64,000 nucleotides of DNA, taken from the NCBI RefSeq assembly GCF_005938745.2, contig NZ_VCBX02000001.1, positions 949,501 through 1,013,500 of the forward strand, in the 5' to 3' direction. Of the stretch, positions 2,398 through 49,272 are shown piece by piece. The position numbers and the translations under genes were made by a program. Position 1 is the first letter of the stretch. Every line of letters begins with the position of its first letter. The notes under the pieces are model-generated. The model was not told where the DNA came from and ran no database searches. It saw nothing but the letters and a program-made list of their open reading frames with translations. Source of the DNA: Rhodococcus sp. KBS0724. GTDB taxonomy: Bacteria; Actinomycetota; Actinomycetes; Mycobacteriales; Mycobacteriaceae.

Positions 2398-2602
2398 GCG
2401 GTTGTTGAAATCTGTTTTCGCTAGTCACCTTCCCAGTGATCGGGACATTTATGGAGAAGGTCTGTGCCGGTAGCGATCGTCAAAACCAGTTCCGAAAAAA
2501 CGTATACCTAATAGACATATCCGGGTTAGTCTGCCTGTGAGCCGAAGAGACCGTGTGCGTGGGGGTTTCTCGCCGACTTTGATCTACTTCGAGAGGAATT
2601 CG

Positions 2603-4183: not shown

Positions 4184-4304
4184 CAATCTCTTGCTGAATG
4201 ACCGATCCGCTTCACGGGTGATGCGACAGAAGGATTCACGTAGTCGCATCATCCGTGAGGGAACCGCCGACAAGACCGGCTGTAAGCGCCGGTGAGGGGT
4301 GCTT

Positions 4305-6136: not shown

Positions 6137-7166
6137 TCTGATGCGAAAAGAAGAGCTCGGTGCGAGTGCTGAACCGCTGTTGCGAGTTCGGGATCTGACT
6201 ATCGAATTCCCGGGCAGCGGGGGGTGGCAGACGACGGTCGAGGGTGTCTCCTTCGATGTCGGTGCCGGCGAGTCGGTGGCGTTGGTCGGTGAGTCCGGAT
6301 CAGGCAAGACGGTGTCCTCGCTTGCGGTGATGGGTTTGACGCAGGCTACCGGCGGCCGGATTTCGCGGGGTTCCATCGAATTCGACGGTCGTGATCTGAC
6401 GAAGGTTCCGGAGCGGGAGTGGCGCAAGCTCCGCGGCACCGGGATGGGCATGATTTTTCAGCAGCCTATTCGCAGTCTCAATCCGGCCTACACGGTCGGT
6501 GATCAGATCGCTGAATCCGTGCGCAAGCACTTGGGTTTGAGTCGTAAGGAAGCAATGGCTCGGGCGGTGGAGATGCTCGAGTTGGTGCAGATTCCCCGGG
6601 CGAAGGAGAGGGTAGGCGATTATCCGCACGCGTTCAGTGGTGGCATGTGTCAGCGTGTGATGATTGCGATGGTGATGGCGTGTAATCCGCGGTTGCTGAT
6701 CGCGGACGAGCCGACCACTGCGCTCGATGTGACGGTGCAGGAGAAGATCCTCGATCTGTTGCGGGATTTGCAGGAGCAGACCGGTGTGGCGTTGCTGTTC
6801 GTCAGTCACGATCTTGCGGTGGTGGCGGAATTGTGTCAGCGGGTGGTGGTGATGTATGCCGGTGAGATCGCGGAAAACGCTGCGGCAGAAGAAGTGTTCT
6901 TCCGTCCTCAGCATCCGTACACGTCGGGGCTGCTTGCCTCGATCCCGCAGCCGGGGCTCAATACCGATCGTCGGCTGCATGCGATCCCGGGGGGAATCCC
7001 GGCGGCGGCCGACTGGCCGACAGGTTGCCGGTTCTCGCCGCGTTGCCCTCATGCCACACCGGGAGTATGCGATGTGGAGCATCCTTCGATGGCGAGTGTT
7101 CCCACCGGAGAAGCGCGATGCCTGCGCGTGCAGGACCTCGATCTGCAGGGAGTGAGTGTGCGATGA
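6120..7166 (+). CDS. DppD-type ABC transporter ATPase
   Basis: A 348-residue ATP-binding subunit. Walker A is GESGSGKT, the Q-loop region is GMIFQQPIRSLNP, the signature is FSGGMCQRVMIAM, and Walker B is [16 protein letters not shown] with the switch His in FVSHD. The C-terminal oligopeptide/dipeptide extension has the Cys-containing pattern TGCRFSPRCPHATPGVCD seen in family members. ATG 6120 is selected because GGAG lies five bases upstream; the longer reading frame from 6090 lacks support. The signature reads SGGMCQR rather than the commoner SGGxRQR, a pattern also found in DppD-like proteins. Confidence 0.87.
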   Translation: MVTMTDLMRKEELGASAEPLLRVRDLTIEFPGSGGWQTTVEGVSFDVGAGESVALVGESGSGKTVSSLAVMGLTQATGGRISRGSIEFDGRDLTKVPEREWRKLRGTGMGMIFQQPIRSLNPAYTVGDQIAESVRKHLGLSRKEAMARAVEMLELVQIPRAKERVGDYPHAFSGGMCQRVMIAMVMACNPRLLIADEPTTALDVTVQEKILDLLRDLQEQTGVALLFVSHDLAVVAELCQRVVVMYAGEIAENAAAEEVFFRPQHPYTSGLLASIPQPGLNTDRRLHAIPGGIPAAADWPTGCRFSPRCPHATPGVCDVEHPSMASVPTGEARCLRVQDLDLQGVSVR

Positions 7167-8002
7167 GTCTTCTCGAAGTGAAGAACGTGTCGAAGTCGTT
7201 TGCGTCGGGACGCGACTTTCTCGGCCGCCGCACCAAGTGGTCGCATGCGGTCAAGGATGTCAGCTTCAGCCTCGAGGCCGGTGAATGTCTTGCCGTGGTG
7301 GGGGAGTCGGGTGCGGGTAAGTCGACGGTGGGCCGGATTGCGCTGCGGTTGATCGAGCCGGATACGGGTTCCATTACGTTCGACGGTGTTGATGTGCGGG
7401 CTGCAAAACCAGCCGAATTGCGTTCGATGCGCCGCGGTATGCAAATGATCTTCCAGGATCCGCACAGCTCCCTCAATCCGCGGATGACCGTCGTCGACGC
7501 CGTAGTAGAACCGCTGATGGTTCACACCGACATGGGTCGCGGTGAACGTGAGAAGTTGGCGACGGCAATGTTGGACAAGGTGGGGATCGGCTCCCGCTAT
7601 TTCGGCCGATATCCGGCGGAGCTCTCGGGTGGTCAGCTTCAGCGAGTGGCGATCGCTCGCGCGTTGACTCTCAATCCGAAGATGATCGTGTGTGACGAAC
7701 CCGTGGCTGCGCTCGATGTTTCGGTTCGCGCTCAAGTCCTCAATCTGTTGCGAGATCTCCAGGAGGAGTTGGGTCTTGCGTATCTGTTCGTGTGCCATGA
7801 CTTGGCGTTGATCGAAGTGATCGCGGATCGCGTACTGGTGATGGCGCGCGGTGAGGTAGTGGAAAGCGGGTCGGTCGCGGACATCTTCCAAAGCCCGCAG
7901 CAGGAGTACACCCGAACATTGCTCGACGCCATACCGGTGCCCGTTCCACGTTCAGTCCGTGGGCAAGCTCGCGAGGTCGTCCGAGCCGAACCTGTCAGTT
8001 GA
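7163..8002 (+). CDS. DppF-type ABC transporter ATPase
   Basis: A 279-residue second ATP-binding subunit, partner of the preceding ATPase. It shows Walker A GESGAGKST, MQMIFQDPHSSLNPRMTV, signature LSGGQLQRVAIARAL, Walker B MIVCDEPVAALDVSVR and the switch region FVCHD. The ATG at 7163 overlaps the upstream stop (ATGA). The protein lacks the long C-terminal Cys extension of its partner. Together the five genes from 2603 to 8002 make a complete importer. Confidence 0.87.
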   Translation: MSLLEVKNVSKSFASGRDFLGRRTKWSHAVKDVSFSLEAGECLAVVGESGAGKSTVGRIALRLIEPDTGSITFDGVDVRAAKPAELRSMRRGMQMIFQDPHSSLNPRMTVVDAVVEPLMVHTDMGRGEREKLATAMLDKVGIGSRYFGRYPAELSGGQLQRVAIARALTLNPKMIVCDEPVAALDVSVRAQVLNLLRDLQEELGLAYLFVCHDLALIEVIADRVLVMARGEVVESGSVADIFQSPQQEYTRTLLDAIPVPVPRSVRGQAREVVRAEPVS

Positions 8003-8012: not shown

Positions 8013-8726
8013 ATGACATCGCTACCAGCAGCAGTAACACCCGCGCAGTCACGAACCATACTGCGTACCACGGAGTCCGGAGACTTCCTGATGAGTGACT
8101 ATCTGGGTGAGCATTCGGACGGGTCGGCAACCGAGGGCTTTCAGGCTTACCTTGTCGGTCAGAAGGCGCCGAAGCTTCGGCCGCATTATCACGAGGTAGA
8201 TCAGTTTCAGGTAGTTCTCGACGGCAGTGGACGGTTGGGTAGGCACGCCATCGGTTCGGGCACTGTGCATTACAGCGATGCGTACACGGTGTACGGCCCG
8301 ATCTTTGCCGACGCACCGGAGGGGCTGTCGTACTTCACACTTCGGCTCGACCCCGCCGCTGGATTGAACTACATGCCGGAATCGCGCGTGAAAGGTGAGA
8401 CGCGTGCCGGAGAACATTTCACCTGTGCGATCGACGACGCCGCAGAAGTGAAAGGAAAGCTGGATCTGCTGGCGCGTACCAGACGCGGCGCCGCGGCATT
8501 CGGTGTTGCGCTCGAGCCCGGTGCAGCATTGACTGCCGATGCGCTGGCCGAATGTGTGGGCCAGGGGTATGCGGTGGTGTTGTCCGGCAGTGCCTCGTTC
8601 GGCGGCCGTACATTGCCGCCGGGAAGTCTCATTCCGTTCGAGTCCGCTAGTGCACTGGAGGGGCTTTCGGGACAGTCTGATCGCACGAACCTGGCCCTGG
8701 TCGTCTTTGCCGCACTGAGCAAGTGA
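8013..8726 (+). CDS. Cupin-fold protein co-transcribed with the ABC transporter
   Basis: A 237-residue protein with a cupin core. The metal-binding first motif is visible as LRPHYHEVDQFQVVLDGSGR (His58, His60 and a nearby Glu/Gln), followed by a second half with weaker resemblance (LPPGSLIPFES near the end). GAGGAG lies about six bases before the ATG at 8013, and only ten bases separate it from the ATPase stop, so it belongs to the transporter operon. Cupins include dioxygenases, isomerases and small-molecule sensors. The pairing suggests it acts on, or senses, the imported compound, but the reaction cannot be named. It runs convergently into the IclR gene with six bases between stops. Confidence 0.65.
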   Translation: MTSLPAAVTPAQSRTILRTTESGDFLMSDYLGEHSDGSATEGFQAYLVGQKAPKLRPHYHEVDQFQVVLDGSGRLGRHAIGSGTVHYSDAYTVYGPIFADAPEGLSYFTLRLDPAAGLNYMPESRVKGETRAGEHFTCAIDDAAEVKGKLDLLARTRRGAAAFGVALEPGAALTADALAECVGQGYAVVLSGSASFGGRTLPPGSLIPFESASALEGLSGQSDRTNLALVVFAALSK

Positions 8727-8732: not shown

Positions 8733-9461
8733 TCAGCGGGAGCCGCCGAGTTGATCCGCTGCTTCTCGGAGAAGCTCGCCGTACTGCGTGAAGTGCTCCT
8801 CGGTCAGCCGCATCGCGGGCCCGCTGATCACGATTGCGGCGAGTGGCGATCCCGACGCATCCAGTATCGCTGCGGCGAGGCTGGTCGATCCTTGTTGGAC
8901 GGCTTCCGCGCTGGCAGCCCATCCGCGGCCGCGAATCTCCCGGTACTCCTCCTCCCCGAGAAGGAGATCGGGCTGACCCGAACTGTTCACGCGTTCTTCT
9001 TGCGACAGATACGCGTGGATGACCCGGCCCGCGGCACTTGCTTCGGGTACGTGTACCTGTCCGATCTTCAGACCGGTCCGAACCATGTGGGTACCTTCGA
9101 CAACCCCGAGAACGATCATGTGTTCGTCCTCGGTGACCGCGAGATGCACTGTCTCGCCGGTGGTATCCCGGAGCCTCGTCATGACGGGTTGTGCTCGGGC
9201 TGCCAGGGACGAGCCGTTGTAGACCTGTCCGGCAACGACAACGCAACGGGTGGAGAGCTCCCATCGTGGCGGCGCCTCGCCGACGGGGTGGATCCATTGC
9301 GCTTCATGGAGAGTCGCCAGGGTGCGTTGCATGGCGCTTTTGTCGACGTCGAGTAGGCGTGAGAGCGCGGTCAGGCCGATCGGCTGGTGGGCGGCAACGG
9401 CTTCGATGACGCGAAGTCCACGCGTGAGTCCGCTGATTGTCTTGACTGCGATCTGAATCAC
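8733..9461 (-). CDS. IclR-family transcriptional regulator
   Basis: A 242-residue regulator. The N-terminal winged helix (LTALSRLLDVDKSAMQRTLA) is followed by the IclR effector domain (ELSTRCVVVAGQVYNGSSLA, DTTGETVHLAV and the final GPAMRLTEEHF). IclR proteins bind small carboxylic or aromatic effectors and control adjacent catabolic operons. The reading frame is open to an ATG at 9509, but that start would put the repeated GATAC operator inside the gene. The GTG at 9461 gives a normal IclR N-terminus and is preferred, though its ribosome site is poor. It is divergent from the 9601-17895 operon and convergent with the transporter-cupin operon, so either or both are plausible targets. Confidence 0.85.
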   Translation of the reverse strand: MIQIAVKTISGLTRGLRVIEAVAAHQPIGLTALSRLLDVDKSAMQRTLATLHEAQWIHPVGEAPPRWELSTRCVVVAGQVYNGSSLAARAQPVMTRLRDTTGETVHLAVTEDEHMIVLGVVEGTHMVRTGLKIGQVHVPEASAAGRVIHAYLSQEERVNSSGQPDLLLGEEEYREIRGRGWAASAEAVQQGSTSLAAAILDASGSPLAAIVISGPAMRLTEEHFTQYGELLREAADQLGGSR

Positions 9462-9482
9462 CCCTAATGTAGAACACGAATT

Positions 9483-9525
9483 GATACATAGTATCACATA
9501 GCGATACATGCTGCGTTAGAGATAC
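9483..9525. promoter_or_regulatory. Repeated GATAC operator candidate between IclR gene and catabolic operon
   Basis: GATAC occurs at 9483, 9503 and 9521, i.e. at 20- and 18-base steps. The first copy forms a palindrome with GTATC at 9491-9495 (GATAC-ATA-GTATC). Spacing near two helical turns in the 140-base divergent gap is typical of a regulator operator; assignment to the adjacent IclR protein is inferred. Confidence 0.5.
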
Positions 9526-9600: not shown

Positions 9601-10356
9601 GTGAAGAAGTTCAAACCCACTGTTGATCAATTGATCCCGAACCTGACGCCGGCGGAGGAGATAGTCCTGCTCGCGCGCGCCTTGTGGACCGAGGGGTATC
9701 AGGATCATCTTGCCGGGCACATCACGTACAACCTCGGCGACGGCACCATGCTGTGCAATCCCTGGTTGCTCACCTGGGAGGAGATCCTCCCCGCCGACAT
9801 CATTCGCATCGATATGGACGGCAATGTTCTAGACGGCGATTGGCCTGTCCCGCTGGGAATTCCCCTGCACCTCGCGCTTCACCGCGCTCGTCCCGATGTC
9901 GGCATCGCGCTGCACAATCATTCGGAGTTCGGAACGGTCTGGGCCGATCTGGGTGAGGTTCCACCTGCCTACGATCAGAGTTCGAGCCTCGGCGGCGGGG
10001 AGGTAGTGCTTGTCGACGAATACGACGGTGGCGTCGACAACATGGAGGCGGCCGAGGCGGCGATTCGGTCGATCGGGCCCGCTGATCGAGCGCTGCTCGC
10101 CGGGCATGGTGTCTTTGTCACGGGTGGCACTGCTGCCGCCGTCTACCTGCGGGCGGTCGCACTCGAACAACGTTGTAAGAATGCCTGGATGGTCCGAGTG
10201 GCCGGTGGACCGGAGAAGACAGCACTGCCCGACTGGTGGCTCGATCGAATGGCCGGTAGTGACGGAAACAGTTACCACGGCTTCTGGGAGGCTGCGGTGC
10301 GCGCTGCGTTGCGCTCGGATCCCGAACTGTTCGAGAGCCTGCAGGCCTCCCAATGA
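9601..10356 (+). CDS. Class II aldolase/adducin-family protein
   Basis: A 251-residue protein of the class II aldolase/adducin fold (fuculose-phosphate aldolase-like). Visible metal-site motifs are ALHNHSEFGTVW (His-x-His) and a later His in LLAGHGVFVTGG. An HLAGHITYN segment near residue 45 matches the family start. The GTG at 9601 is chosen because GAGAGG lies five bases upstream; a longer start at 9580 is possible. Relatives cleave or decarboxylate hydroxy acids, or act as epimerases. It is the first gene of the long + strand operon and could release or process a short oxygenated fragment. The substrate is unknown. Confidence 0.75.
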   Translation: MKKFKPTVDQLIPNLTPAEEIVLLARALWTEGYQDHLAGHITYNLGDGTMLCNPWLLTWEEILPADIIRIDMDGNVLDGDWPVPLGIPLHLALHRARPDVGIALHNHSEFGTVWADLGEVPPAYDQSSSLGGGEVVLVDEYDGGVDNMEAAEAAIRSIGPADRALLAGHGVFVTGGTAAAVYLRAVALEQRCKNAWMVRVAGGPEKTALPDWWLDRMAGSDGNSYHGFWEAAVRAALRSDPELFESLQASQ

Positions 10357-10401
10357 ACGACCAAGGCTTTCAAGCTATCAGCTGCTCCGGAACGGATACT
10401 C

Positions 10402-11580
10402 ATGGATTTTGAACTCGACGCAGATCAGCGAGCGTGGCGCGAGGAGATACGTGCGTTTCTTCGCGAAAATGTGACGCCGGAATTGCGTGCGGAAATGGCC
10501 GAACACGACCTGGAGTTCATAGGCGGGGAGCTCACTGCATTTCGGCGAAAGATCGGGGCAAAAGGATGGTTCGGGCTCAATTGGCCCACAGAGTTCGGTG
10601 GGCTTGGCCTCGGGGCGGTGTATCAGCATCTCCTGGTCAGTGAATTCGAGTACTGGGGCGTTCCGGGACCGGACTTGACGGTCACGTCGGTGGCACCGAT
10701 GATCATGCGCCACGGCACGCAGCAGAACCGGGAGGAGTTCCTGCCGCCGATCGCCCGCGGTGAACTGACCTGCGCCGTGGGCTATTCCGAACCCAATGCC
10801 GGAACCGACCTTGCGAGTTTGAAGACCAAGGCGGTACGCGAGGGCGACGAGTGGGTGATCAACGGTTCCAAGATCTGGAACAGTATGGCGCAGCGCGTCA
10901 CTCACGAATGGTTGTGTGTTCGCACCAACACCGAGGTACCCAAACACAAGGGAATCTCGGTGATCATCGTGCCGATCGACGCTCCCGGCGTCGTGATTCG
11001 CCCGATCACCGCGTGGTCCGGGTATCGAACCAATGAAACGTTCTTCGACAACGTCCGTGTCCCCGTGACCAACCTGATCGGTGAGGTCGACAAGGGATGG
11101 AAGTACATCACCGGCGCACTGGACCTCGAACGTGGTGCGCTCACGAATGCCGGCGACCTTCGTAGAGCTGTCGACGATCTTGTGATTCTTGCGCGCGAGA
11201 TCCGCGAAGACGGAACAAGGCCGCTCGACAACGCAGATGTACGACGAAAGCTTGCTCAGTTGGACGCGGATGTCGAACTCGCGCAACTCATGGGTTTCGA
11301 AGCGTCGTCGCTGCTCGAGAGCGGAACCATTCCGTCCGTGCTCGTCAGCGTCGAAAAGGTCTTCTCCAGTGAACTCAGACAACGGATTGCCGACGTCGGA
11401 ACGTCGATGCTCGGTCCGGCAGGTTTGATCGCGGGTACAGATTCACATGCAGTGATGGCGGGAAAGTTCGAGCGACTGTACCGCGCCGCGCCGTTGCTGC
11501 GATTCGGTGCCGGAGCCAACGAAGTTCTGCGAGATGTCATCGCACAGCGCGGGCACTCTTTGCCGAGTTACGGGCGCTGA
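10402..11580 (+). CDS. Acyl-CoA dehydrogenase (large-type subunit)
   Basis: A 392-residue FAD acyl-CoA dehydrogenase. Landmarks are GWFGLNWPTEFGGLGLGAVY at the N-terminal helical domain, the FAD-facing loop VGYSEPNAGTDLASLKTKA, INGSKIWNS in the beta domain, and the C-terminal GAGANEVLRDVIAQRG. It introduces a double bond alpha-beta to a CoA thioester. It sits directly before a second, different dehydrogenase gene. Paired adjacent genes of this sort commonly encode alpha2-beta2 enzymes in actinobacterial sterol side-chain and cyclic-acid pathways (as shown for ChsE1-ChsE2), so a heteromer is inferred. Confidence 0.85.
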   Translation: MDFELDADQRAWREEIRAFLRENVTPELRAEMAEHDLEFIGGELTAFRRKIGAKGWFGLNWPTEFGGLGLGAVYQHLLVSEFEYWGVPGPDLTVTSVAPMIMRHGTQQNREEFLPPIARGELTCAVGYSEPNAGTDLASLKTKAVREGDEWVINGSKIWNSMAQRVTHEWLCVRTNTEVPKHKGISVIIVPIDAPGVVIRPITAWSGYRTNETFFDNVRVPVTNLIGEVDKGWKYITGALDLERGALTNAGDLRRAVDDLVILAREIREDGTRPLDNADVRRKLAQLDADVELAQLMGFEASSLLESGTIPSVLVSVEKVFSSELRQRIADVGTSMLGPAGLIAGTDSHAVMAGKFERLYRAAPLLRFGAGANEVLRDVIAQRGHSLPSYGR

Positions 11581-11619
11581 CATGATTTCGACAATCCTTG
11601 ACGGCGTAGGAGTTCGCTG

Positions 11620-12759
11620 ATGAAACTTGTTGCTACCCAAGACCAACTCGATCTGCAGGCGATGTCGGCTGCCGTCCTGGCCAAACAATGTCCGATCAGT
11701 CTGGTGCGTGAACTGGCAGAACCGATGTCCGAGAGCCATCCGGACAAGCTGATGACGGCGCTGGCCGAGGTTGGTGTTCTGGGATTGGCGATCGACGAAG
11801 AATACGGCGGCGGTGGAGCGAGCCTGTACGAACTCGGTGTGTTCTTTCGAGAGGCCGGACGGGTACTGTGCCCCTCGATCGTCTACAGCACAGTGCAATT
11901 CGGTATCGCTGTCGGGCGACTGGCCACGCCGGCGCAACGCAGCAGGTATCTGCCCGCATTGGCCGAAGGTCGACTCCGGGCCGGCGTTGCCGCCTGGAAT
12001 CCCGGTGACGCCGGTGATATCCGACCGACGGTGACGGCAACCCCAGTTCAGGGTGGGTGGTTGCTCAACGGAACCCTGTCATTTGTCGTGAACGCTTCGG
12101 CGTCCGATGTGGTCCTCGTGACTGCTCGCACCGCGGTGTTCGCTGAACCGGAACGATTGATCTGCGCCTTCGTCGAGCCGACAGCCACCGGGTGGAATGC
12201 CGTCGCGTTGTCGAACATGTCCGGAGAGAGACTCTCTCGGGTCGACCTTGTCGACATCTTCGTCTCGGACGAGTCGGTATCGCTCGGGGTGAGCGGGAAC
12301 GGGTTGGGCGTCGACGATCTTCGATGGGTCGCCAATGCGGCAGTGGCGCTCCAGTGTATGGAGATGGCCGGTGGTGGCGCCGCAGTTCTGGATCGCACCG
12401 TCGACTACATTGCCCAGCGCGAGCAATTCGGTCGATCGATCGGCAGTTTCCAAGCCGCGCAACACATTGTCGCCGATATGCACATCGCACTCGAAGGTGC
12501 CCGCTTGGCTGCCGCACAAGCGGTGTGGTGGGTGGCTCGCGGCGAATCCGCCACTCGTGCGGTCGCGATTGCAAAAATGCAGTGCAACGAAGCTTACAAG
12601 CGCGCGACGCTCGACGCACATCAATTGCACGGTGGCATGGGATACGTCCTCGAAACCGATCTGCATCTGTGGTCGGAGCGGGCAAAGGTCACCGAAATCC
12701 GCTACGGCACAGCAGATGTTGCTGCGGGCTGGCTGCAGAAGGAGCTGAATCTTGCCTAG
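11620..12759 (+). CDS. Acyl-CoA dehydrogenase (second subunit)
   Basis: A 379-residue acyl-CoA dehydrogenase, more divergent than its neighbour. TAGGAG precedes ATG 11620. The C-terminal helical domain is recognisable (QREQFGRSIGSFQAAQHIVA, ATLDAHQLHGGMGYVLETD). The position equivalent to the classical I-Y-E-G-T motif reads EIRYGT, so the catalytic Glu usual at that site is not seen. Residues may be shared across a heteromer interface with the 10402 gene product. Its end overlaps the TTG start of the CoA-transferase gene by eight bases. Confidence 0.82.
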   Translation: MKLVATQDQLDLQAMSAAVLAKQCPISLVRELAEPMSESHPDKLMTALAEVGVLGLAIDEEYGGGGASLYELGVFFREAGRVLCPSIVYSTVQFGIAVGRLATPAQRSRYLPALAEGRLRAGVAAWNPGDAGDIRPTVTATPVQGGWLLNGTLSFVVNASASDVVLVTARTAVFAEPERLICAFVEPTATGWNAVALSNMSGERLSRVDLVDIFVSDESVSLGVSGNGLGVDDLRWVANAAVALQCMEMAGGGAAVLDRTVDYIAQREQFGRSIGSFQAAQHIVADMHIALEGARLAAAQAVWWVARGESATRAVAIAKMQCNEAYKRATLDAHQLHGGMGYVLETDLHLWSERAKVTEIRYGTADVAAGWLQKELNLA

Positions 12760-13981
12760 CGAGGCGAAGCCGGAACCGCGGCAGGCACTTCAGGATCTCC
12801 GGATCGTGGATTTGTCGAGATGGGTGGCAGGCGAATACGCAACGAAGATGTTCGCAGATTTTGGTGCGGACGTTGTCAAGGTCGAAAAGCCGGAGACCGG
12901 CAGTCTGACGCGGTCATGGGGGCCGTTTCCCGACGATGTTCCGAACGTCGAGCGTAGTGCTCTGTTCCTGCATCTGAACACCAACAAGAAATCGCTTGTC
13001 CTCGACCTGAGCTCGGATTCCGGGCGTGAGGCTCTCCTGAACCTCGTGGACACGGCGGACGCGGTGGTGGAGTCTTTCCGGCCCGGGCAGCTGGAGAAAT
13101 TGGGCCTGGGGCCGGACGTGCTCCAGGCGCGCAACCCCTCGCTGGTGATCACGCGAATCAGTGCGTTCGGCCAGACCGGACCGTACCGGGATCGTGAAGC
13201 GAGCGGCCTGGTCCTGCAGGCTGCCGGTGGTCCGATGAATGCAACCGGCGCGGCTGATCGCGCGCCGTTGCGCAAACCGGGACTGCTCGAGCACTACACG
13301 ATCGGCCGTACGGCCGGCGAAGCAACGATGGCCGGAATTTTCAGCGCGAAGCGCACGGGAAAAGGTTCGGTGATCGACGTGTCCGGGCAGGAGGTTCTGC
13401 TTTCCGGCGCCGATCGGCGAGCGTCGTATCTGGTCTCGGCAGCGTATTCCGGCATGAATGCTCCACGCGGAGTTCGAAGCCCGCATCGGCACGGCGTGAC
13501 GTTCACCGGGCCGTTCCGGGCGAAGGACGGATTCGTGATGCTGTACGTGACCAATCAAGCGTTCTGGAATCGATTGGTCGACATCGTCGGTGAGCACGAC
13601 AGCGAATTCCATGCGCGGTATCACGGGCGCGAGACGATCATGGGAACCGACCGTGACGAGTTCATGGGCTATGTCACCAAGTGGTTCGCGCAGCGACCGA
13701 AAGTCGCGATCATGGAACAGTGCGAGGCGGCCCGTATTCCCGTCACGGCGTATCTCGACGTCTCGGAATTGTTGAGTCACGATCACTTTCGTAGCCGAGG
13801 CGCGTTTGTCCGTGGTTCGCACCCGGTCGCGGGAACATTGGAGTACACCGGTGCCCCGTGGCGGATGGCCAACGGGTACCGGTTACGTCATACCGCACCG
13901 ACTCTCGACCAGCACGGTCCACAGATCCGTGAGTCGCTGGCACAGACAGAGTCGCTGGCACAGACAGGGGAGCGATCGTGA
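12752..13981 (+). CDS. CaiB/BaiF family III CoA-transferase, lacking the usual catalytic Asp
   Basis: A 409-residue family III CoA-transferase. TTG at 12752 is used as start: AAGGAG lies seven bases upstream and it overlaps the dehydrogenase stop. The family N-terminus (LQDLRIVDLSRWVAGEYATK, DFGADVVKVEKPETG) and FGQTGPYRDREASGLVLQA are clear. The catalytic Asp of family III enzymes normally lies just before the helix that reads IGRTAGEATMAGIFSAKRTG here; this protein has Glu180-His181 (PGLLEHYTIG). It may be a non-acylated subunit of a heteromer with the next gene product, as in the two-subunit BbsEF-type transferases. An 18-base tandem duplication near the 3' end gives a repeated ESLAQT at the C-terminus. 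Confidence 0.82.
   Translation: MPSEAKPEPRQALQDLRIVDLSRWVAGEYATKMFADFGADVVKVEKPETGSLTRSWGPFPDDVPNVERSALFLHLNTNKKSLVLDLSSDSGREALLNLVDTADAVVESFRPGQLEKLGLGPDVLQARNPSLVITRISAFGQTGPYRDREASGLVLQAAGGPMNATGAADRAPLRKPGLLEHYTIGRTAGEATMAGIFSAKRTGKGSVIDVSGQEVLLSGADRRASYLVSAAYSGMNAPRGVRSPHRHGVTFTGPFRAKDGFVMLYVTNQAFWNRLVDIVGEHDSEFHARYHGRETIMGTDRDEFMGYVTKWFAQRPKVAIMEQCEAARIPVTAYLDVSELLSHDHFRSRGAFVRGSHPVAGTLEYTGAPWRMANGYRLRHTAPTLDQHGPQIRESLAQTESLAQTGERS
13931..13966 (+). repeat. 18-base tandem duplication inside the first CoA-transferase gene
   Basis: GAGTCGCTGGCACAGACA occurs twice head-to-tail (13931-13948 and 13949-13966), in frame, adding ESLAQT a second time eleven residues before the stop. The copies are identical, so the duplication is recent or slippage-prone. 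Confidence 0.95.
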
Positions 13982-15249
13982 GTTATCCGCTCGAAGGAAT
14001 TCGTGTTGTCGACTTGACGGTTGTCTGGTCCGGACCCGGTGGGACAGCGATGCTGGGGGACTTGGGTGCCGAAGTGATTCGGGTGGAAGGGAACAACCGC
14101 GTCAGCCGGCAAGTATCGGCAAAGACCACGAAGGAATCGATCGCGCAGACCGGCTATCACGGCGGGACCTATCCGGAGAAGGATCCCGGCGAGCGGCCGT
14201 ACGACCGCACAGCTCTGTTCAATTGGCATTCCCGGAACAAACTTTCGGCGTGCATGAATCTCGATACCGAAGCGGGACACGCAGCGGTGATCGAACTGAT
14301 CAAGGTCAGTGATGTTCTGGTGGAGAACAATTCCAACGGCACTCTGGAAAAGTTGGGTCTCGGACATGAGCGTTTGCTCGAACTCAACCCTCGTTTGATC
14401 GTCGCTCGTATGCCTCCCCTCGGGATGACCGGACCGATGAGTGACTATCTCGGTTACGGGCCCAATTTCAATTCGCTCGTGGGGATCGCCGCAATGGACG
14501 GATACGAGGGTGAGGAAGCCGACTCGGCCGGCGAGAATTACCACATGGATGAGGCAGCGCCGGCGGGATTGGCCTTTGCTGTGATGGCCGCGTTATGGGA
14601 CCGCGAGCACACCGGCGCCGGGGGACTTGTGGAGTTTGCGCAGGCGGAGAACGTCATGGCGGAGATCGGGGAATTTGTACTCGACGCTCAGGTAAACGGC
14701 AGAGTTCCGGAGATCCTCGGCAACTCCGATCCTCATGTGCTGCAGGATGTTTTCCTCAGTGCCGATGAGGACCGTTGGGTCGCAATATCTGTACGCAGCG
14801 ATCGCGAGTGGACGGCATTGGCCGCAGTGATCGGCGGGGACGAACTTGCCGAACTTGGCGCCGATGCGGTCGCAAGACGGACCAACTCCGCGTCGATCAG
14901 GGATCGAATCGCGAATTGGGCACGGTCCAGGTCGGCCGCCGAGATCGTTTCGGTGTTGCAGGATTGCGCCGTTCCCGCGGGTGAGGTGATGAGAGAAACC
15001 GGATTGCTCGAGGACGACCACCTACGCGAGCGTGGCTGGTTCCAGGAGCGAACACACCCGTCCGTGGGAACCTATCGATATCCCGGACATCCCTGGCGGG
15101 TGGAGGGATTCGATCTGGCATTCGGGCGAGTGCTCCCGGGGTTCGGTGAGGACAACGAGTACGTCTACAAGAAGATTCTCGGCTATTCCGATGAGAAGTA
15201 CGCAGAACTCGAGAATTCCGGACTGGTCACAGACCATCAAATAGCATGA
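13978..15249 (+). CDS. CaiB/BaiF family III CoA-transferase (Asp-containing partner)
   Basis: A 423-residue family III CoA-transferase starting at a GTG that overlaps the preceding stop (GTGA), with GGGGAG five bases upstream. It shows LEGIRVVDLTVVWSGPGGT, DLGAEVIRVEGNN, PPLGMTGPMSDYLGYGPNFN and, at the expected active-site position, NYHMDEAAPAGLAFAVMAAL with Asp191. It could therefore carry the acyl-aspartyl intermediate. Paired with the previous gene it probably transfers CoA to a free acid entering the pathway. No substrate-specific feature was recognised. Confidence 0.84.
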   Translation: MSYPLEGIRVVDLTVVWSGPGGTAMLGDLGAEVIRVEGNNRVSRQVSAKTTKESIAQTGYHGGTYPEKDPGERPYDRTALFNWHSRNKLSACMNLDTEAGHAAVIELIKVSDVLVENNSNGTLEKLGLGHERLLELNPRLIVARMPPLGMTGPMSDYLGYGPNFNSLVGIAAMDGYEGEEADSAGENYHMDEAAPAGLAFAVMAALWDREHTGAGGLVEFAQAENVMAEIGEFVLDAQVNGRVPEILGNSDPHVLQDVFLSADEDRWVAISVRSDREWTALAAVIGGDELAELGADAVARRTNSASIRDRIANWARSRSAAEIVSVLQDCAVPAGEVMRETGLLEDDHLRERGWFQERTHPSVGTYRYPGHPWRVEGFDLAFGRVLPGFGEDNEYVYKKILGYSDEKYAELENSGLVTDHQIA

Positions 15250-15261
15250 GAGAGAAAGAAT

Positions 15262-15786
15262 ATGACTGAAAACGTAGCCGTGGTTCCGGATTCGGAATCT
15301 CTGATCCCCTCCGCTGTTGCCGATCGGGTCGGGGAAGTGGTCTCGAGGGCGACAGGAGCTGTCGTTGCGCGAGATTGGCAACGGTGGGCGGTGTCTGTCG
15401 GCGAGACCAACCCGCTGTACTTCGATAGTGCCTATGCCCGTGAGCACGGCTATCGCGATGTTGTTGCCCCACCGCTGTATTTGCAGTACGCGATTCTCGG
15501 GGTGACGCCGATACCGGAACTGCGGGTAGACGGGTCATCCGGGGCTGCCTCCGGGAATCTGGTTTTCCCCTTGTGTCCCAAGCGGATGGCCGGCGGCGAG
15601 AACACCACTTTCCTTCGGTCAGCCTACGACGGCGACGTGATCACCAGTGTGCGCGTCGTGGATTCGGTGGTCGAGAAGCGCGGTCGGTCCGGCCGGTTCG
15701 TGCTGGTGACGTGGAAAACCACGTACACCAATCAGAATGACGAGGTTGTGGCCGAAGCGACGACCTCGATGATCGCCCGTCCGTAG
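15262..15786 (+). CDS. MaoC/FAS1-like hot-dog dehydratase, N-type
   Basis: A 174-residue single hot-dog protein of the FAS1-like/MaoC N-type. The segment SVGETNPLYFDSAYAREHGY followed by APPLYLQYAI matches the family's core helix, and the final strand ends NQNDEVVAEATTSMIARP. GAGAGAAAG precedes the ATG. Proteins of this type usually need a second hot-dog chain to make an active enoyl-CoA hydratase, and that partner is encoded 26 bases downstream. Confidence 0.8.
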   Translation: MTENVAVVPDSESLIPSAVADRVGEVVSRATGAVVARDWQRWAVSVGETNPLYFDSAYAREHGYRDVVAPPLYLQYAILGVTPIPELRVDGSSGAASGNLVFPLCPKRMAGGENTTFLRSAYDGDVITSVRVVDSVVEKRGRSGRFVLVTWKTTYTNQNDEVVAEATTSMIARP

Positions 15787-15812
15787 CTCGCCCTGCCGTA
15801 TCCCGCAGAAAG

Positions 15813-16277
15813 ATGAAAGTTATGTCACCGCAAGTGTATTTCGACGACATCGAGACCGGCGACACGATTCCGGTGTTGGCTGTCAGTGTCACTCAACTGC
15901 AGATGTTCCTCTTCAGTGCAGCGACGTACAACGGGCACCGCATCCACTACGACCGGAGTTGGGCCGTCGACGTCGAGGGCTATCAGGACGTCGTAGTGCA
16001 GGGGCCGCTCCAGGCGGCGCTTCTGGCGCGCGTTGTCACCGACTGGATCGGTGGCGCTGGATCATTGGTGAACTTCTCGGCCTCGAACCGCGCCGTAGCC
16101 TTTCCCGGCGAGCCGTTGGAATTCACGGGAACAGTGACCGGCAAGCGCGACGAGAACGGCAGAGCGTTGGTCGATCTGGACCTTGCGGGAGTGCGTGGCG
16201 GTGAGGTGCTGATGCCGGGAACTGCGACAGTACTGCTGCCGCGTCGGGGCACTGCCACCTCGGCCGGAGTGTCCTGA
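15813..16277 (+). CDS. MaoC-like hot-dog enoyl-CoA hydratase, C-type
   Basis: A 154-residue hot-dog protein (or 151 if the ATG at 15822 is used). The hydratase-2-type signature appears as SAATYNGHRIHYDRSWA, with the His that polarises water in this family, and QGPLQAALLARVV follows. It likely forms a heteromer with the 15262 product, analogous to ChsH1-ChsH2, and hydrates the enoyl-CoA made by the dehydrogenase pair. Its stop overlaps the next ATG (TGATG). Confidence 0.8.
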   Translation: MKVMSPQVYFDDIETGDTIPVLAVSVTQLQMFLFSAATYNGHRIHYDRSWAVDVEGYQDVVVQGPLQAALLARVVTDWIGGAGSLVNFSASNRAVAFPGEPLEFTGTVTGKRDENGRALVDLDLAGVRGGEVLMPGTATVLLPRRGTATSAGVS

Positions 16278-17479
16278 TGGCGGGACTGCGCGGCGAGGCT
16301 GCCATCGTCGGATTCTGTGAACTGCCGGCCCAGCGTAAGCAGACCCGACCGGAGTTGTTCACCATCGAGCAGTGGGCAATGCTCTCGAAGCTGGCAATTG
16401 AGGACGCGGGGCTGGAGGCGTCACAGATCAATGGTCTTGTCACGCATGGTATTGCGGAATCCGATATGTTTGCTCCGGCCACACTGTCCGAATATCTCGG
16501 GATTCCCCTGAACTTCGGTGAGCGAGTCGACCTCGGCGGTGCAACGGCAGCGGGGATGGTGTGGCGAGCTGCCGCAGCCGTCGAACTCGGTATCTGCGAC
16601 GCGGTGTTGGTTATTGTTCCTGGGTCGTACATGACACCGAAATCTCGGATTCAGCCCGCGGCGGATCCGGGGTATCTCGGTGCCTCGAGTGGCAAGTTCG
16701 GTTCTCCTCAAGCCGAATTCGAGATTCCGTTCGGTAATCTCGGGCAGAACGCGCCGTATGCTCAGATTGCTCGGCGGTACGCGGCGGAATTCGGGTACGA
16801 CGAGCGCGCCACTGCAAAGATCGCGGTGGACCAGCGAACCAACGCCTGTAGTACTCCGGGAGCGGTGTTCCACGGAAAGCCGATCACCATCGACGATGTC
16901 CTGGCGAGTCCGATGATCGCCGATCCCATTCGGATGCTCGAGGTCGTGATGCGGGTTCAGGGTGGCGCGGGCATTGTCGTGGCGAACGCTGATATCGCCC
17001 GTCGCGGCCGTAACCGTCCGGTCTGGGTCAAGGGGTTTGGCGAGCACCTGTCGTTCAAGACGCCGACCTATGCAGACGACATGGTGCGCACGCCGATCGC
17101 GAAGGCTGCGGACACGGCATTCGACATGGCTGGAATCTCGCGATCAGCGGTGGATGTGGCTTCGATTTACGACTGCTACACGATCACGGTGGTAATGAGC
17201 CTCGAAGATGCAGGCTTCTGCGAGAAGGGGAAAGGCATGGAGTTCGTGTCGTCGAGAGACCTGACCTTCCGCGGCGACTTCCCGGTGAATACCGCGGGCG
17301 GCCAATTGTCCTACGGGCAAGCGGGAATGGCGGGCGGAATGCATCACGTGTGTGACGGTGTGCGTCAGGTGATGGGCCGATCCGGAGCGGCGCAGGTCGA
17401 GGACTGCAATACCGCGTTCGTGACGGGGAACGGCGGCATCATGAGTGAGCAAGTTGCACTGATACTCCAGGGAGACTAG
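16277..17479 (+). CDS. Thiolase-fold lipid-transfer-protein-like enzyme, probable retro-aldolase
   Basis: A 400-residue thiolase-superfamily protein. All three classical thiolase active-site elements are replaced. The position of the nucleophilic Cys reads DLGGATAAGM, the G-H-P box reads GGQLSYGQAGMAGGMHH, and the C-terminal C-x-G box reads VTGNGGIMS. Tyr residues stand at Tyr298/Tyr301 (IYDCYT) and Tyr346 (QLSYGQ). In the Ltp2-DUF35 steroid retro-aldolase, Tyr rather than Cys residues are the proposed catalysts. Together with the DUF35 gene two bases downstream, this suggests carbon-carbon cleavage of a beta-hydroxyacyl-CoA by retro-aldol chemistry rather than thiolysis. Its exact product is inferred only. 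Confidence 0.75.
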   Translation: MAGLRGEAAIVGFCELPAQRKQTRPELFTIEQWAMLSKLAIEDAGLEASQINGLVTHGIAESDMFAPATLSEYLGIPLNFGERVDLGGATAAGMVWRAAAAVELGICDAVLVIVPGSYMTPKSRIQPAADPGYLGASSGKFGSPQAEFEIPFGNLGQNAPYAQIARRYAAEFGYDERATAKIAVDQRTNACSTPGAVFHGKPITIDDVLASPMIADPIRMLEVVMRVQGGAGIVVANADIARRGRNRPVWVKGFGEHLSFKTPTYADDMVRTPIAKAADTAFDMAGISRSAVDVASIYDCYTITVVMSLEDAGFCEKGKGMEFVSSRDLTFRGDFPVNTAGGQLSYGQAGMAGGMHHVCDGVRQVMGRSGAAQVEDCNTAFVTGNGGIMSEQVALILQGD

Positions 17480-17481
17480 GC

Positions 17482-17895
17482 ATGTCGAACGAAAAGCCGT
17501 TTCCGGAACCGACGCCGGTGTCCGCACCGTTCTGGAATGCTCTGCGAGAGCGCAAGATAAAGATCCAGTACTCACCCTCGTCGGACGATTTTGTCTTCTA
17601 TCCGCGTTTGCTGGCGCCGCGCACGTTGGCTGACGACCTCGAGTGGCGTGAGATCAGTGGATTGGGCACGCTCTACACCTATACGGTGGCTGACCGTCCG
17701 ACGGCACCGCCGTGGTCGGATGCGTTGCCGCAGTTGTTGGCAGTGGTGCAGTGGGACGAGGGGCCGCGGTTCAGTACCGAACTGGTCGAGGTGGGCGATC
17801 GCGAGCTCAGCGTCGGTATGCGGGTGGAACCCGTGTTCTGTGACTATCCGGATCGTGACATCACTCTGCTGAGATACCGGCCTGTATCGCTCTGA
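17482..17895 (+). CDS. DUF35 OB-fold protein without zinc-ribbon cysteines
   Basis: A 137-residue DUF35/OB-fold protein (PFWNALRERKIKIQYSPSSD, then FYPRLLAPRTLADDLEWRE, ISGLGTLYTYTVADRP). Most DUF35 proteins have a C-x2-C zinc ribbon where this one reads QYSPSSDDFVFYPR, so the metal site is lost. DUF35 proteins dock on thiolase-fold partners and help build the CoA channel. The immediate upstream thiolase-fold gene is the obvious partner. It is the last gene of the + strand operon; the PadR gene converges 28 bases away. Confidence 0.82.
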   Translation: MSNEKPFPEPTPVSAPFWNALRERKIKIQYSPSSDDFVFYPRLLAPRTLADDLEWREISGLGTLYTYTVADRPTAPPWSDALPQLLAVVQWDEGPRFSTELVEVGDRELSVGMRVEPVFCDYPDRDITLLRYRPVSL

Positions 17896-17923: not shown

Positions 17924-18577
17924 TTAGTCTTCGTGTTTGCGGAGCTCGTCCGGAGTGCGGGGTTCAGGCTTTTTCCGGCGTGCTTTTCCGGCGCTGGTTT
18001 TGTCAGATCCGAGTCGAGAGATGTTCTCCAACATCCAGTTTGCTCGGTCACGCTCTGATTCGTAGTACATCTCCGACCAACGCAGCACCAGTTCGGGATA
18101 TGCCCATCCAGCTTCCTCGGATGCGCCTTCGGCATCGGCAATTGCGCGGATGCGCATCTTCTCGGACTGGTCGCGGTGTTCGGTAAGTACCGATTGCAGT
18201 TTGTCGGGGTCGGCTAGATGGCCGAGCCACATCCTGAGCATCACGCCGTGTTTGAGCACTGCGGGTTCGACCGGCGATTCGTTTGCCCACGTCGCTACCG
18301 CGTCGGTTCCGGCTGGAGTGATCGCGTACAGGCGCTTGCTCTTGACGTCGTTTGTGCTCACCACGCGGGAGGTGGCGTAGCCGTGCGCCTCGAGATTGCG
18401 TAGTTCACTGTAGATCTGGCTGTACGACGGTGCCCAGTAGAAGAACCGCAGGCTCCAGTCCGCCCATTTCTTGAGGTCGTAACCGGAGAGTTCGGATCCG
18501 AATGACAGGAGGCCAAGGACGGCCCAGCTTGTCGGTCGCAGAGTGGGCGCGTCTGCGGATGTTTTGTCCTTTGCCAT
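17924..18577 (-). CDS. PadR-family transcriptional regulator
   Basis: A 217-residue PadR regulator. The winged helix is seen as LRPTSWAVLGLLSFGSELSG, FFYWAPSYSQIYSELRNLEA and GYATSRVVSTNDVKSKRLYA, followed by the C-terminal helical dimerisation domain and a basic tail rich in Lys/Arg. The long upstream extension of this frame is non-coding because it would cover the divergent ligase gene; ATG 18577 is therefore chosen. PadR repressors typically respond to phenolic acids, though many have other ligands. The divergent acyl-CoA ligase is the likeliest target. Confidence 0.85.
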   Translation of the reverse strand: MAKDKTSADAPTLRPTSWAVLGLLSFGSELSGYDLKKWADWSLRFFYWAPSYSQIYSELRNLEAHGYATSRVVSTNDVKSKRLYAITPAGTDAVATWANESPVEPAVLKHGVMLRMWLGHLADPDKLQSVLTEHRDQSEKMRIRAIADAEGASEEAGWAYPELVLRWSEMYYESERDRANWMLENISRLGSDKTSAGKARRKKPEPRTPDELRKHED

Positions 18578-18613
18578 GGTCGAAAGGTTACCTGCCGGTA
18601 GACCACAAGAGAG

Positions 18614-18630
18614 TATTTCGGTTAGAAATA
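18614..18630. promoter_or_regulatory. Candidate PadR operator
   Basis: A perfect 6-base inverted repeat TATTTC-GGTTA-GAAATA lies centrally in the 81-base gap between the divergent PadR and ligase genes. Position and symmetry fit an operator; no binding data are available. Confidence 0.4.
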
Positions 18631-18658
18631 TGCTGAAAAGTAGTGCGGGAAGGTACGT

Positions 18659-20218
18659 ATGAACGGCTCTCTGCGCCCCGGTCCCGGGGAACCACTCAGC
18701 GGGAGAGGTGCCAAGCCTACGTCGGCCGAATGTTTCAATGCAGACATGCCGCGTGATCTTTTGGTACCGACGCTCGACGCGCTCTGCCTGGACTTGGCGC
18801 AGCGGTGCGGAGACCGAGTGGCATTGCTCGACGGCAGCCAGGAGATCACGTACGGCGAACTGACGGACCACGCGCTGAGGGTGGCGACTGTTCTTGCGGA
18901 TGCGGGCGTGCGACCGGGCTCGCGGGTGGTCCTCAGCGGCCGCAACACCACCGACTGGGTCTGTATCGCCCTCGGGATCCTGTGCGCTGGGGCGACTGTT
19001 GTTCCGGTGGGCCATGGCGTCAGCGACATCGAGTATTCACGAATTCTCGATGTCACAGAACCAGCCCTCGTAGTCGACGAACCACGGATCACCGGGATCA
19101 TGGCAGCCGCCGGAGTCGCCACCCCTGATCCCGATCGGCCGGCTGCGAGTCCCGACGATGTTGCGGTGATTCTCTCGACCTCCGGTTCGACCGGAGTGTC
19201 CAAGCAGGTTCCCATGACCCACGGACAGCTGTCGCGGTTGTACTCGGCAGTGGCGCAGCGACTCGAATTGACCAGTGCGGATCGGGTGATCGGTGCCGTC
19301 CCGTTTGCACATTCGTTCGGTTTCAACGGCGTGCTGCTGACCGCGATGTGCGCCGGAGCCTCGGTGCGCGTCGTCGAACAGTACGACAGAGCCGACCTGG
19401 CCGACGTGATAGTCCGTGACCGCGTCACCGTGGTGATGGGGCCACCGACAATTCTCTTCGACCTGGTCGGCAGCGGCCGCGACGACATCGGGTTGGTATG
19501 CAGGATGGCGGTGAGCGGCGGTTCCGAAGTGCCGCTCGACCGTATGCGCGGAGCGTGCCGCGAACTCGGAATCGTGAACATGGTTGTCGGCTACGGACTT
19601 ACCGAAGCGTGCGGGACCGTCGCCATGGGCAGTATCACCGAGGGCGAATCAGGTTCGCTCGCGATGTTGACCCCCGTCGACGGACTCGAGATCCGGATTG
19701 TCGACGACTACGGCTATCCGCTTCCCCCCGACGAGGACGGCCACGTGCTCTGTTCCGGGTACAACATCATGCACGGATACCTCCGAGCCGGAGACGATCC
19801 GGAATCAACGCTCGACGACGCGGTAGACGGTGACGGTTGGTTGCGAACCGGCGACATCGGTTGGTCGGACGACGAAGGACACCTGTACATCGTCTCGCGG
19901 TCAAAGGACACGGTGATTGTCAGCGGATTCAACGTGTACCCCCAAGAAGTCGAGACGGTGTTGATGGAGCACCCGTTGATCCTCGAAGTCGCAGTGATCG
20001 GTGTGGCCGACGAACGGCAAGGTCAGCGGCTGGTTGCCTGCATCATCCCGGTCCACGGACACTCCGTCGATTCGCAGGATCTGATCGAATTCTGCAAAGA
20101 ACGGTTGAGCGCCTACAAGGTGCCGCGCATCTTTGTCGAGTTGGAGATGTTCCCGACAACGCACACCGGAAAACGATCACGTGAAGAACTACGCAAGCAG
20201 ATTTCGCAGCGATTATGA
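18659..20218 (+). CDS. AMP-forming acyl-CoA synthetase/ligase
   Basis: A 519-residue adenylate-forming enzyme. The AMP/ATP loop is STSGSTGVSKQVPMTH, the A5-type motif is VGYGLTEACGTVAMG, the hinge region is GWLRTGDIGWSDDEGHLYIV, and the C-terminal catalytic Lys lies in TTHTGKRSREEL. ATG 18659 has GGGAAGG five bases upstream, although family similarity only begins near residue 30, so a start at 18746 is possible. It probably activates a carboxylic acid as CoA thioester and is divergent from the PadR regulator. It is a second entry route to the CoA-dependent enzymes upstream, or belongs to a separate pathway. Confidence 0.82.
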   Translation: MNGSLRPGPGEPLSGRGAKPTSAECFNADMPRDLLVPTLDALCLDLAQRCGDRVALLDGSQEITYGELTDHALRVATVLADAGVRPGSRVVLSGRNTTDWVCIALGILCAGATVVPVGHGVSDIEYSRILDVTEPALVVDEPRITGIMAAAGVATPDPDRPAASPDDVAVILSTSGSTGVSKQVPMTHGQLSRLYSAVAQRLELTSADRVIGAVPFAHSFGFNGVLLTAMCAGASVRVVEQYDRADLADVIVRDRVTVVMGPPTILFDLVGSGRDDIGLVCRMAVSGGSEVPLDRMRGACRELGIVNMVVGYGLTEACGTVAMGSITEGESGSLAMLTPVDGLEIRIVDDYGYPLPPDEDGHVLCSGYNIMHGYLRAGDDPESTLDDAVDGDGWLRTGDIGWSDDEGHLYIVSRSKDTVIVSGFNVYPQEVETVLMEHPLILEVAVIGVADERQGQRLVACIIPVHGHSVDSQDLIEFCKERLSAYKVPRIFVELEMFPTTHTGKRSREELRKQISQRL

Positions 20219-25640: not shown

Positions 25641-25696
25641 CGGTTCGGCTTTCCTCACTCTGGGCGACAGTATGTCCACACTAGGGGCGGCTCGTT

Positions 25697-45023: not shown

Positions 45024-46803
<1,780 letters not shown>

Positions 46804-49262: not shown

Positions 49263-49272
49263 CGATTTTCCC

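Follow-up and report, generated by a model that had tools for sequence, protein, structure and literature searches.

The operon at positions 9601-17895 of a 64,000-nucleotide stretch of Rhodococcus sp. KBS0724 (hereafter the window; G000:C1:949501-1013500, within a 7.25-Mb genome) very probably encodes a retro-aldol module of the Sal type, with a two-gene acyl-CoA dehydrogenase and a two-gene hydratase. CtSal, the bile-acid C5 side-chain aldolase of Comamonas testosteroni, acts on the steroid side chain according to its published description (PMC12329534). The operon stands outside the family of the igr operon (ChsE1-ChsE2, ChsH1-ChsH2, Ltp2) and is a variant of the kind represented by Sal and the aldolase Atf1. 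Considering its gene set and order, conservation, clade, catalytic residues, loss of zinc ligands and a lineage-dependent swap of the CoA-activating enzyme, we assign a probability of about 0.55 to the reading that this Sal/Atf1-lineage module acts on a steroid-like carboxylic acid and, in each pass, removes one acetyl-CoA from its side chain.

Nine open reading frames (ORFs) lie on the plus strand with intergenic gaps of 45, 39, -8, -4, 12, 26, -1 and 2 bp in gene order, in agreement with the first-pass annotation of this DNA, which had described one operon with two acyl-CoA dehydrogenases, two hot-dog proteins, a thiolase-fold protein and a DUF35 protein. By Pfam, the order is a class II aldolase/adducin-fold protein (9601-10356; Aldolase_II, 122.8 bits), acyl-CoA dehydrogenase subunits A (10402-11580) and B (11620-12759; middle domain below the Pfam cut-off), two type III CoA-transferase subunits (12752-13981 and 13978-15249; CoA_transf_3, 306 and 262 bits), a MaoC-fold protein (15262-15786; FAS1_DH_region, 77 bits), a second hot-dog protein (15813-16277; MaoC), the thiolase-fold protein (16277-17479) and a stand-alone DUF35 protein of 137 aa (17482-17895; OB_ChsH2_C). 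The same annotation had placed the class II aldolase and both CoA-transferases ahead of the rest; the aldolase does head the operon, but the CoA-transferases lie between the dehydrogenases and the hydratases. A close homolog of the class II aldolase heads the module in just three of the 80 loci compared below (L001, L002 and L005).

The identity of the thiolase-fold protein carries the main argument. Its best solved relative is CtSal (9MYR chain A, in an entry named as Sal-Shy(DUF35)) with 449 bits and 53% identity, compared with 135 bits and 32% for TcLtp2 (6OK1), so that the comparison with Ltp2, its proposed counterpart in the first-pass annotation, turned out against that analogy. It passes no NCBIfam cut-off, the best score being 252 bits of 421. 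A tree of 43 rows, which took in 19 of the 20 other thiolase-fold matches from the window's genome, put CtSal in one clade with the window protein and its orthologs and with a second mycobacterial aldolase group (support 100/99), with all 19 paralogs outside it. TcLtp2 joined the paralogs L088, L083 and L082 of the same genome (100/96), and L082 and L088 are YDHF proteins like the Ltp2 clade, while the window protein carries YDCY; motif and tree together rule out an Ltp2 assignment. As a separate observation, L082, L083, L084 and L088 are four more clusters of this genome in which acyl-CoA dehydrogenases accompany a thiolase-fold protein and DUF35 genes, MaoC genes or both; L084 has two CoA-transferases in addition.

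The YDCY cysteine, Cys304, is catalytic in CtSal (PMC12329534), and the window residues Tyr298, Cys300, Gln157, Asn158, Gln343, Gln348 and Gly387 correspond to CtSal Tyr302, Cys304, Gln161, Asn162, Gln347, Gln352 and Gly391. These seven, together with a glycine at the thiolase nucleophile position (Gly88 in the window), are conserved in 83/83 module aldolases, a set made up of loci of the 80-locus set plus a few from an even Actinomycetota sample, as are the MaoC and DUF35 sets of this size. The description of this protein as a Cys-less thiolase is thus correct for the nucleophile position but not for the YDCY cysteine, which is present. An ordinary thiolase is ruled out by Gly88 and by the lack of a 3-hydroxyacyl-CoA dehydrogenase in the operon.

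The DUF35 protein, whose pairing with the aldolase we infer from gene order, matches 9MYR chain B with 109 bits, and its best predicted structure (pLDDT 80.5; the other four models 75, 58, 58 and 44) is closest to 9myr_B, at a TM of 0.84/0.81. DUF35 homologs bind zinc through four cysteines, and CtShy through three cysteines and one histidine, according to PMC12329534. In the window protein, and in 82 of the 83 sequences (including three from the Atf1-like sister group), the first 60 residues contain no cysteine, the sole exception being the outlying L100. The partner is a DUF35 protein without zinc ligands, with the fold preserved in the prediction. Compared with CtSal/CtShy-DUF35, the module is alike in the clade, in the catalytic and oxyanion residues and in this closest structural match, and it differs in its separate DUF35 lacking the Cys3His1 zinc site, in a MaoC pair in place of the Shy hydratase, and in the replacement of His59 and Arg216 of CtSal.

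In the seven loci aligned, dehydrogenase A always retains the flavin/substrate motif YSE[PA]xAGTDLAxL and lacks RxQFG, and dehydrogenase B always retains R[EH]QFGR...FQAxQH and lacks the flavin motif. Such complementary loss is a sign of a two-gene enzyme, probably an alpha2beta2 heteromer, and steroid heteromers are the best solved relatives of subunit A (4X28 chain A, 268 bits; Tcur3483 of T. curvata, 263 bits). Likewise, the two hot-dog proteins appear to form a ChsH1-ChsH2-type heteromer with one active and one inert subunit. The active motif TYN[GA]HR[IV]H (TYNGHRIH in the window) is found in 83/83 sequences, and the window protein scores 42 bits with itaconyl-CoA hydratase. Its partner, which resembles the MaoC half of ChsH2, has GETNPLY and no catalytic histidine in the window; an NPL[YW]-type motif occurs in most sequences printed, a few have other letters and none was seen with histidine, and the nearest solved structures are chains A of the ChsH1-ChsH2 entries 4W78 and 4WNB (25 bits).

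The functional order, the heteromeric dehydrogenase with its subunit A close to steroid enzymes, and the pairing of an inert with an active MaoC protein are features that would also be expected of an igr/Ltp2-type module, which would remove propionyl-CoA from a C3 side chain. Nevertheless, that explanation is contradicted by sequence and is very improbable: YDCY and Gln348 take the place of YDHF, the tree puts the aldolase with Sal, the DUF35 protein is unfused and zinc-free where igr has a fused ChsH2 with a Cys4 zinc DUF35, the gene set is different, and YDHF modules are already present twice in this genome (L082 and L088). The igr operon, for its part, is under KstR control and neighbors the P450 gene cyp125.

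Activation of the acid would be the task of the CoA-transferase pair, for which a heterodimer is predicted from alignment. The catalytic column holds aspartate in 6/6 sequences of the subunit encoded at 13978-15249 and histidine in 6/6 of the other, and both subunits are fused as a single 838-aa ORF in two metagenome-assembled genomes of Pseudonocardiales (L011:356-2869 and L019:6489-9002). The Bbs operon of the benzylsuccinate pathway likewise combines a heterodimeric type III CoA-transferase (BbsEF) with a thiolase fold and DUF35 (BbsAB); however, BbsAB is a true thiolase with a zinc DUF35, and the window aldolase matches it with 86 bits. Of the 15 non-mycobacterial loci, 13 have the transferase subunit CaiB1 and 13 have CaiB2 (12 have the pair, 14 at least one subunit), against 0/65 mycobacterial loci, whereas a FadD1 ligase occurs in 61/65 mycobacterial and 0/15 non-mycobacterial loci; CoA activation is thus swapped between lineages. 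The single FadD1 scanned (L027) scored 969 bits against an NCBIfam cut-off of 800, with FadD17 and then, third, the steroid-22-oyl-CoA synthetase CasI as next best.

We infer reactions, heteromers, substrate and product from these features as follows. The CoA-transferase pair would load the acid with CoA, the two-gene acyl-CoA dehydrogenase would form the 2-enoyl-CoA, the MaoC pair would hydrate it to the 3-hydroxyacyl-CoA, and the aldolase, held by the zinc-free DUF35 protein, would split the latter into acetyl-CoA and an aldehyde or ketone, with Tyr298 as base and Cys300 as acid. This keeps the dehydrogenase-hydratase-retroaldolase chemistry of the first-pass annotation, to which the complementary motif loss in the dehydrogenases, the inert and active MaoC proteins and the retained CtSal catalytic residues lend good support at the sequence level. 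The proteobacterial first-cycle cholate set (shy, sal, an aldehyde dehydrogenase gene and scd1AB) is alike in using a hydratase and Sal in an acetyl-CoA-releasing pathway, but the module has no aldehyde dehydrogenase gene and would be activated by CoA-transferase.

All or some of the core genes (dehydrogenase pair, hydratase pair, aldolase and DUF35) are found again in 80 actinobacterial loci (15 non-mycobacterial and 65 mycobacterial). These are the best 80 of 274 stretches encoding relatives and, being mostly mycobacterial, are not independent. With presence scored by identity and coverage cut-offs of our own choice, aldolase and MaoC were found in 80, the FAS1-like protein in 79, DUF35 in 76 and the two dehydrogenases in 73 and 73 loci; some contigs end inside the module, and several missing core genes are such contig ends. 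The nearest locus found is that of Rhodococcus globerulus (L001), with an aldolase 97% identical, and an ortholog of at least 94% identity occurs in 5 of 28 genomes of the genus. Among 396 evenly drawn Actinomycetota genomes, 8 matched at 1e-80, from 2 of 237 genera, two of them with an Atf1-like copy alone. In 17 of the 80 loci, a P450 of mycobacteria lies near the module (e.g., L033:15157-16419) and could prepare the acid. In the Nocardioides locus L047, an amidohydrolase-like protein (11681-13405; 66 bits, L047 scanned) immediately follows DUF35, the same ORF cluster being found in L035 and L066, and a family-5 binding protein follows the amidohydrolase-like gene in Nocardioides L035 and L047.

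The substrate is more likely to be a steroid-like acid, because the outgroup CtSal and, as identified here, the sister group of the module aldolases act on steroid side chains according to published work (PMC12329534; PMC10398937). The sister clade is the second mycobacterial aldolase group (L108, L110 and L112; wider stretches L114-L116), which is widespread in mycobacteria (best 120 of 4468 matches) and has DUF35 and dehydrogenases beside the aldolase in L114 and L116, and DUF35 alone in L115. By gene set, not by accession, this group is probably the HBC/Atf1 system. The HBC operon of Mycolicibacterium neoaurum comprises, according to its report, the aldolase atf1, a stand-alone DUF35 gene chsH4 (138 aa), one dehydrogenase chsE6 and the regulator kstR3, and Atf1 converts 22-OH-BNC-CoA of the sterol route (PMC10398937). 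Published work also reports that thl of M. neoaurum governs 4-HBC formation (PMC12409849) and that YDCY homologs are present in cholesterol-degrading Actinobacteria (PMC12329534). The outgroup and, probably, the sister group thus act on steroid C24 side chains.

The same kinship could mean that the module is an ordinary paralog of the sterol HBC shunt, in which the aldolase would repeat the Atf1/Sal reaction from a 22-hydroxy-C24-steroid-CoA to a C22 aldehyde and acetyl-CoA. The window aldolase is 64-65%, and its DUF35 protein 67%, identical to the Atf1-like group, both systems place a stand-alone DUF35 protein of about 138 aa beside a Sal-type aldolase, with zinc cysteines missing in the equated group too, and a sterol cluster lies nearby in the window. 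However, the nine-gene operon with its IclR regulator has its own dehydrogenase pair, hydratase pair and CoA activation, whereas the HBC operon, of four genes, is without them (no hydratase pair, CoA activation, transporter or Baeyer-Villiger monooxygenase of its own was found here, or is reported in the accessible text of PMC10398937). Furthermore, glycine at CtSal position 59 in 83/83 module aldolases against histidine in 3/3 Atf1-like sequences separates the groups. Of the 7 mycobacterial genomes that gave a match, 5 have the module copy as well as the Atf1-like one, and the two copies for that reason look non-redundant. We regard simple paralogy as unlikely.

The sterol side-chain cluster of the window (45520-58319) starts about 28 kb downstream of the operon and encodes a FadA5-type steroid thiolase (721 bits, cut-off 515), a P450, an Rv3520c-type F420 oxidoreductase, a PRK07798-type acyl-CoA synthetase, lipid-transfer-type thiolases (50173-51444 and 51354-52436) and a double DUF35 protein (52436-53446). 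Exact KstR-type boxes lie in the window at 34226, 46788 and 53420 (0.30 expected; 0/100 shuffles reach three). The earlier statement that P450 and KstR box are missing consequently stands for the operon but not for the window, with its P450 sterol cluster and three boxes. The P450 of this cluster lies 22-31 kb from the aldolase in 4/5 genomes of the R. globerulus group, the fifth being split over contigs. Linkage to the sterol cluster is confined to this group and was therefore set aside as general support.

Several observations weigh against a steroid-side-chain module of the Sal type. No exact KstR-type box lies inside the operon, where the only one-mismatch match, at 11621, is coding sequence. 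Outside the R. globerulus group, FadA5 is far from the module in the two genomes checked, each with both genes on one contig (128 kb in the genome of L003, 2.6 Mb in M. triplex). CtSal His59, which would contact the steroid ring, is replaced by glycine throughout the module aldolases, although the Atf1-like sequences retain it, and Arg216 by proline in 82/83, the latter also in the three Atf1-like sequences, so that the ring or size preference may differ from that of CtSal. Dehydrogenase B has its best solved relative in 7SZV (127 bits), ahead of the steroid enzyme Tcur3481 (98 bits). The dehydrogenase pair is absent from 4 of the 15 non-mycobacterial loci, including L019, whose more than 6 kb upstream hold no such dehydrogenases and which is not a contig-end effect. 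The activation swap is incomplete, as Amycolatopsis L006 has a ligase scoring best with CasI (638 of 900) beside CoA-transferase genes. The R. globerulus group (the window, L001, L002 and L005) has no Baeyer-Villiger monooxygenase (BVMO) close to the operon. To our knowledge, actinobacterial operons for steroid side chains do not usually include a class II aldolase, type III CoA-transferases or a transporter of the oligopeptide type. A measured substrate was found for no enzyme of the module clade. In the literature, among the matches listed by a search with subscription papers outside its coverage, no title or abstract describes the operon.

The choice of the bent bile-acid rings is credited, in the model given in PMC12329534, to the unusual zinc finger of the DUF35 partner and to a clash of His59 with planar rings. 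The change of this histidine to glycine alters the ring-contacting ridge and would suit a non-steroid substrate, namely a beta-branched alicyclic or isoprenoid acid (cyclohexylacetate, citronellate, resin or naphthenic acids), whose hydration would give a tertiary alcohol that the aldolase would cleave to a ketone and acetyl-CoA. Cyclohexylacetate biochemistry includes such a step, by 1-hydroxycyclohexyl-acetyl-CoA lyase (EC 4.1.3.35). Activation by CoA-transferase and uptake through an Opp-type transporter would go well with small acids, and the usual ketone-to-lactone set is found as a BVMO and an HSL-type esterase in many loci, with Zn-alcohol/aldehyde dehydrogenases in three Nocardioides loci. 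On the other side, the outgroup CtSal is a steroid enzyme by its description (PMC12329534), as is the sister group by our identification, mycobacterial activation relies on FadD1, kin of steroid ligases, and both of the scanned linked BVMOs match steroid monooxygenase and phenylacetone monooxygenase better than cyclohexanone monooxygenase. Another branched or cyclic acid, as the first-pass annotation had suggested, is a rather improbable rival, with a steroid-like acid made more likely by the kinship to CtSal and the sister group.

The two scanned BVMOs are those of Rhodococcus sp. H36-A4 (L003; steroid monooxygenase 780, phenylacetone monooxygenase 607, cyclohexanone monooxygenase 491 bits) and one mycobacterial locus (610, 550 and 444 bits, respectively), and these scores make a cyclohexanone-type identity less likely. 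A BVMO at least 48% identical to that of L003 was found in 57/80 loci (49 mycobacterial and 8 others), and an HSL-type esterase in 48 mycobacterial and 3 Nocardioides loci. ORF-based counts were 55 for the BVMO, 52 for the ligase and 38 for the esterase, against 57, 61 and 51 by tblastn, and are lower because a simple ORF caller fuses or misses genes. No BVMO occurred in 25 control loci (319 kb), namely 19 other thiolase-fold loci of the window's genome, L100, three Atf1-like loci, L117 (a core locus itself, without BVMO) and L120; being mostly from the window's own genome, and 11 to 18 kb long compared with up to 21 kb for the module loci, they are weak controls for mycobacteria.

The linked BVMOs are only 49 to 56% identical across lineages (L003, L047 and L010), compared with 72 to 84% identity to the window protein for the aldolases. 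A tree of steroid monooxygenase with 14 linked and 10 unlinked BVMOs (unlinked sequences taken as tblastn segments, eight of them from five of six genomes searched; ORFs above 560 aa shortened to the C-terminal 545 residues; two more BVMOs of the window's genome, 55% and 51%, left out) placed the Rhodococcus-linked pair among unlinked steroid-monooxygenase-like rows (100/98), the Nocardioides-linked sequences in their own clade (100/100) and the mycobacterial ones in another (100/100), with L019 on a long branch of unsure placement. This placement is read as separate linkage of the BVMO in at least three lineages. Nevertheless, a second BVMO of Nocardioides daejeonensis (L126, G461:C13:414163-415749), about 18.5 kb from its aldolase module, shares 60% identity with the linked BVMO of mycobacteria and branches as sister to their clade (100/99), which speaks against separate linkage; part of the link may therefore be old.

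The linkage suggests that the BVMO takes the next step after the aldolase in these relatives, where it would turn the carbonyl into an ester that the esterase would convert to the alcohol. Whether aldolase and BVMO form one relay is a tentative matter, on which we lean towards doubt. The wider form of this idea, a second, igr-independent removal of side chains from polycyclic rings, is just as speculative: acting on an acid of steroid or hopanoid type, a zinc-free Sal-type aldolase would yield an aldehyde or methyl ketone, the BVMO an acetate or formate ester and the esterase an alcohol, the relay having been assembled separately in mycobacteria, Nocardioides and Rhodococcus. In the window, tblastn with proteins of the loci gave no match at 1e-5 to the BVMO, esterase, aldehyde dehydrogenase or alcohol dehydrogenase; a 550-aa ORF at 24030-25679, suspected in the search for downstream enzymes, is a PucR regulator. 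The window's genome encodes such enzymes elsewhere, with a BVMO and two mycofactocin-type dehydrogenases at C1:5.19 Mb (L118), and a BVMO with an HSL esterase, a short-chain dehydrogenase/reductase and P450-like and aldehyde dehydrogenase matches at 6.07 Mb (L119), and these two loci are possible unlinked downstream steps.

The module aldolases and their DUF35 partners, the sister group included for the latter, form a large natural clade without zinc cysteines (82/83) and, in the module, without His59 (83/83, as glycine), which makes the roles of both features directly testable. The activation swap, and the fact that at least three lineages have acquired different BVMOs next to one and the same core, indicate that soil actinobacteria have a catabolic route not yet assigned. 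Should its substrate be a steroid, this route could be of use for making steroid synthons.

The operon adjoins a divergent IclR-family regulator gene (8733-9509, minus strand; IclR_C, 97 bits), whose true start is probably slightly inside the longest frame, and an Opp/Dpp-type ABC transporter (2537-8002, plus strand), as the first-pass annotation had held for IclR control and uptake. A candidate IclR operator, the 15-bp palindrome TGATAC-ATA-GTATCA at 9482-9496, is the longest perfect inverted repeat in the gap between iclR and the class II aldolase gene; this predicted site overlaps the longest possible iclR frame and lies upstream of the likely iclR start. Both arms are unchanged in three of four sequences (the window, L001 and L002), and a single base differs in L005. 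The transporter comprises a family-5 binding protein (2537-4183), permeases (4299-5246 and 5243-6136) and ATPases (6090-7166 and about 7163-8002), with Pfam matches SBP_bac_5, BPD_transp_1 and ABC_tran/oligo_HPY on the 3/5 genes scanned. Four of the five genes also adjoin the module in Rhodococcus L003, L004 and L007, where the fifth would fall off the locus. At the transporter-module junction of these three loci, homologs of the class II aldolase, of IclR and of the ORF at 8013-8726 were undetected. The latter encodes 237 aa between transporter and IclR in the window, is cupin-like by eye and has no Pfam or NCBIfam match. Downstream of the operon, at 17924-20218, are a PadR regulator (minus strand) and a FadD3-like acyl-CoA ligase (plus strand) by Pfam, of uncertain role in the pathway; the ligase scores 342 bits with NCBIfam FadD3 against a cut-off of 657. 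At the left edge of the window, a carboxyltransferase gene (1-1405), apparently truncated by this edge, has 67-69% identical homologs near the module in Nocardioides L017, L035 and L047, and at 61355-63430 one 692-aa ORF combines oligopeptide-type permease and ATPase domains.

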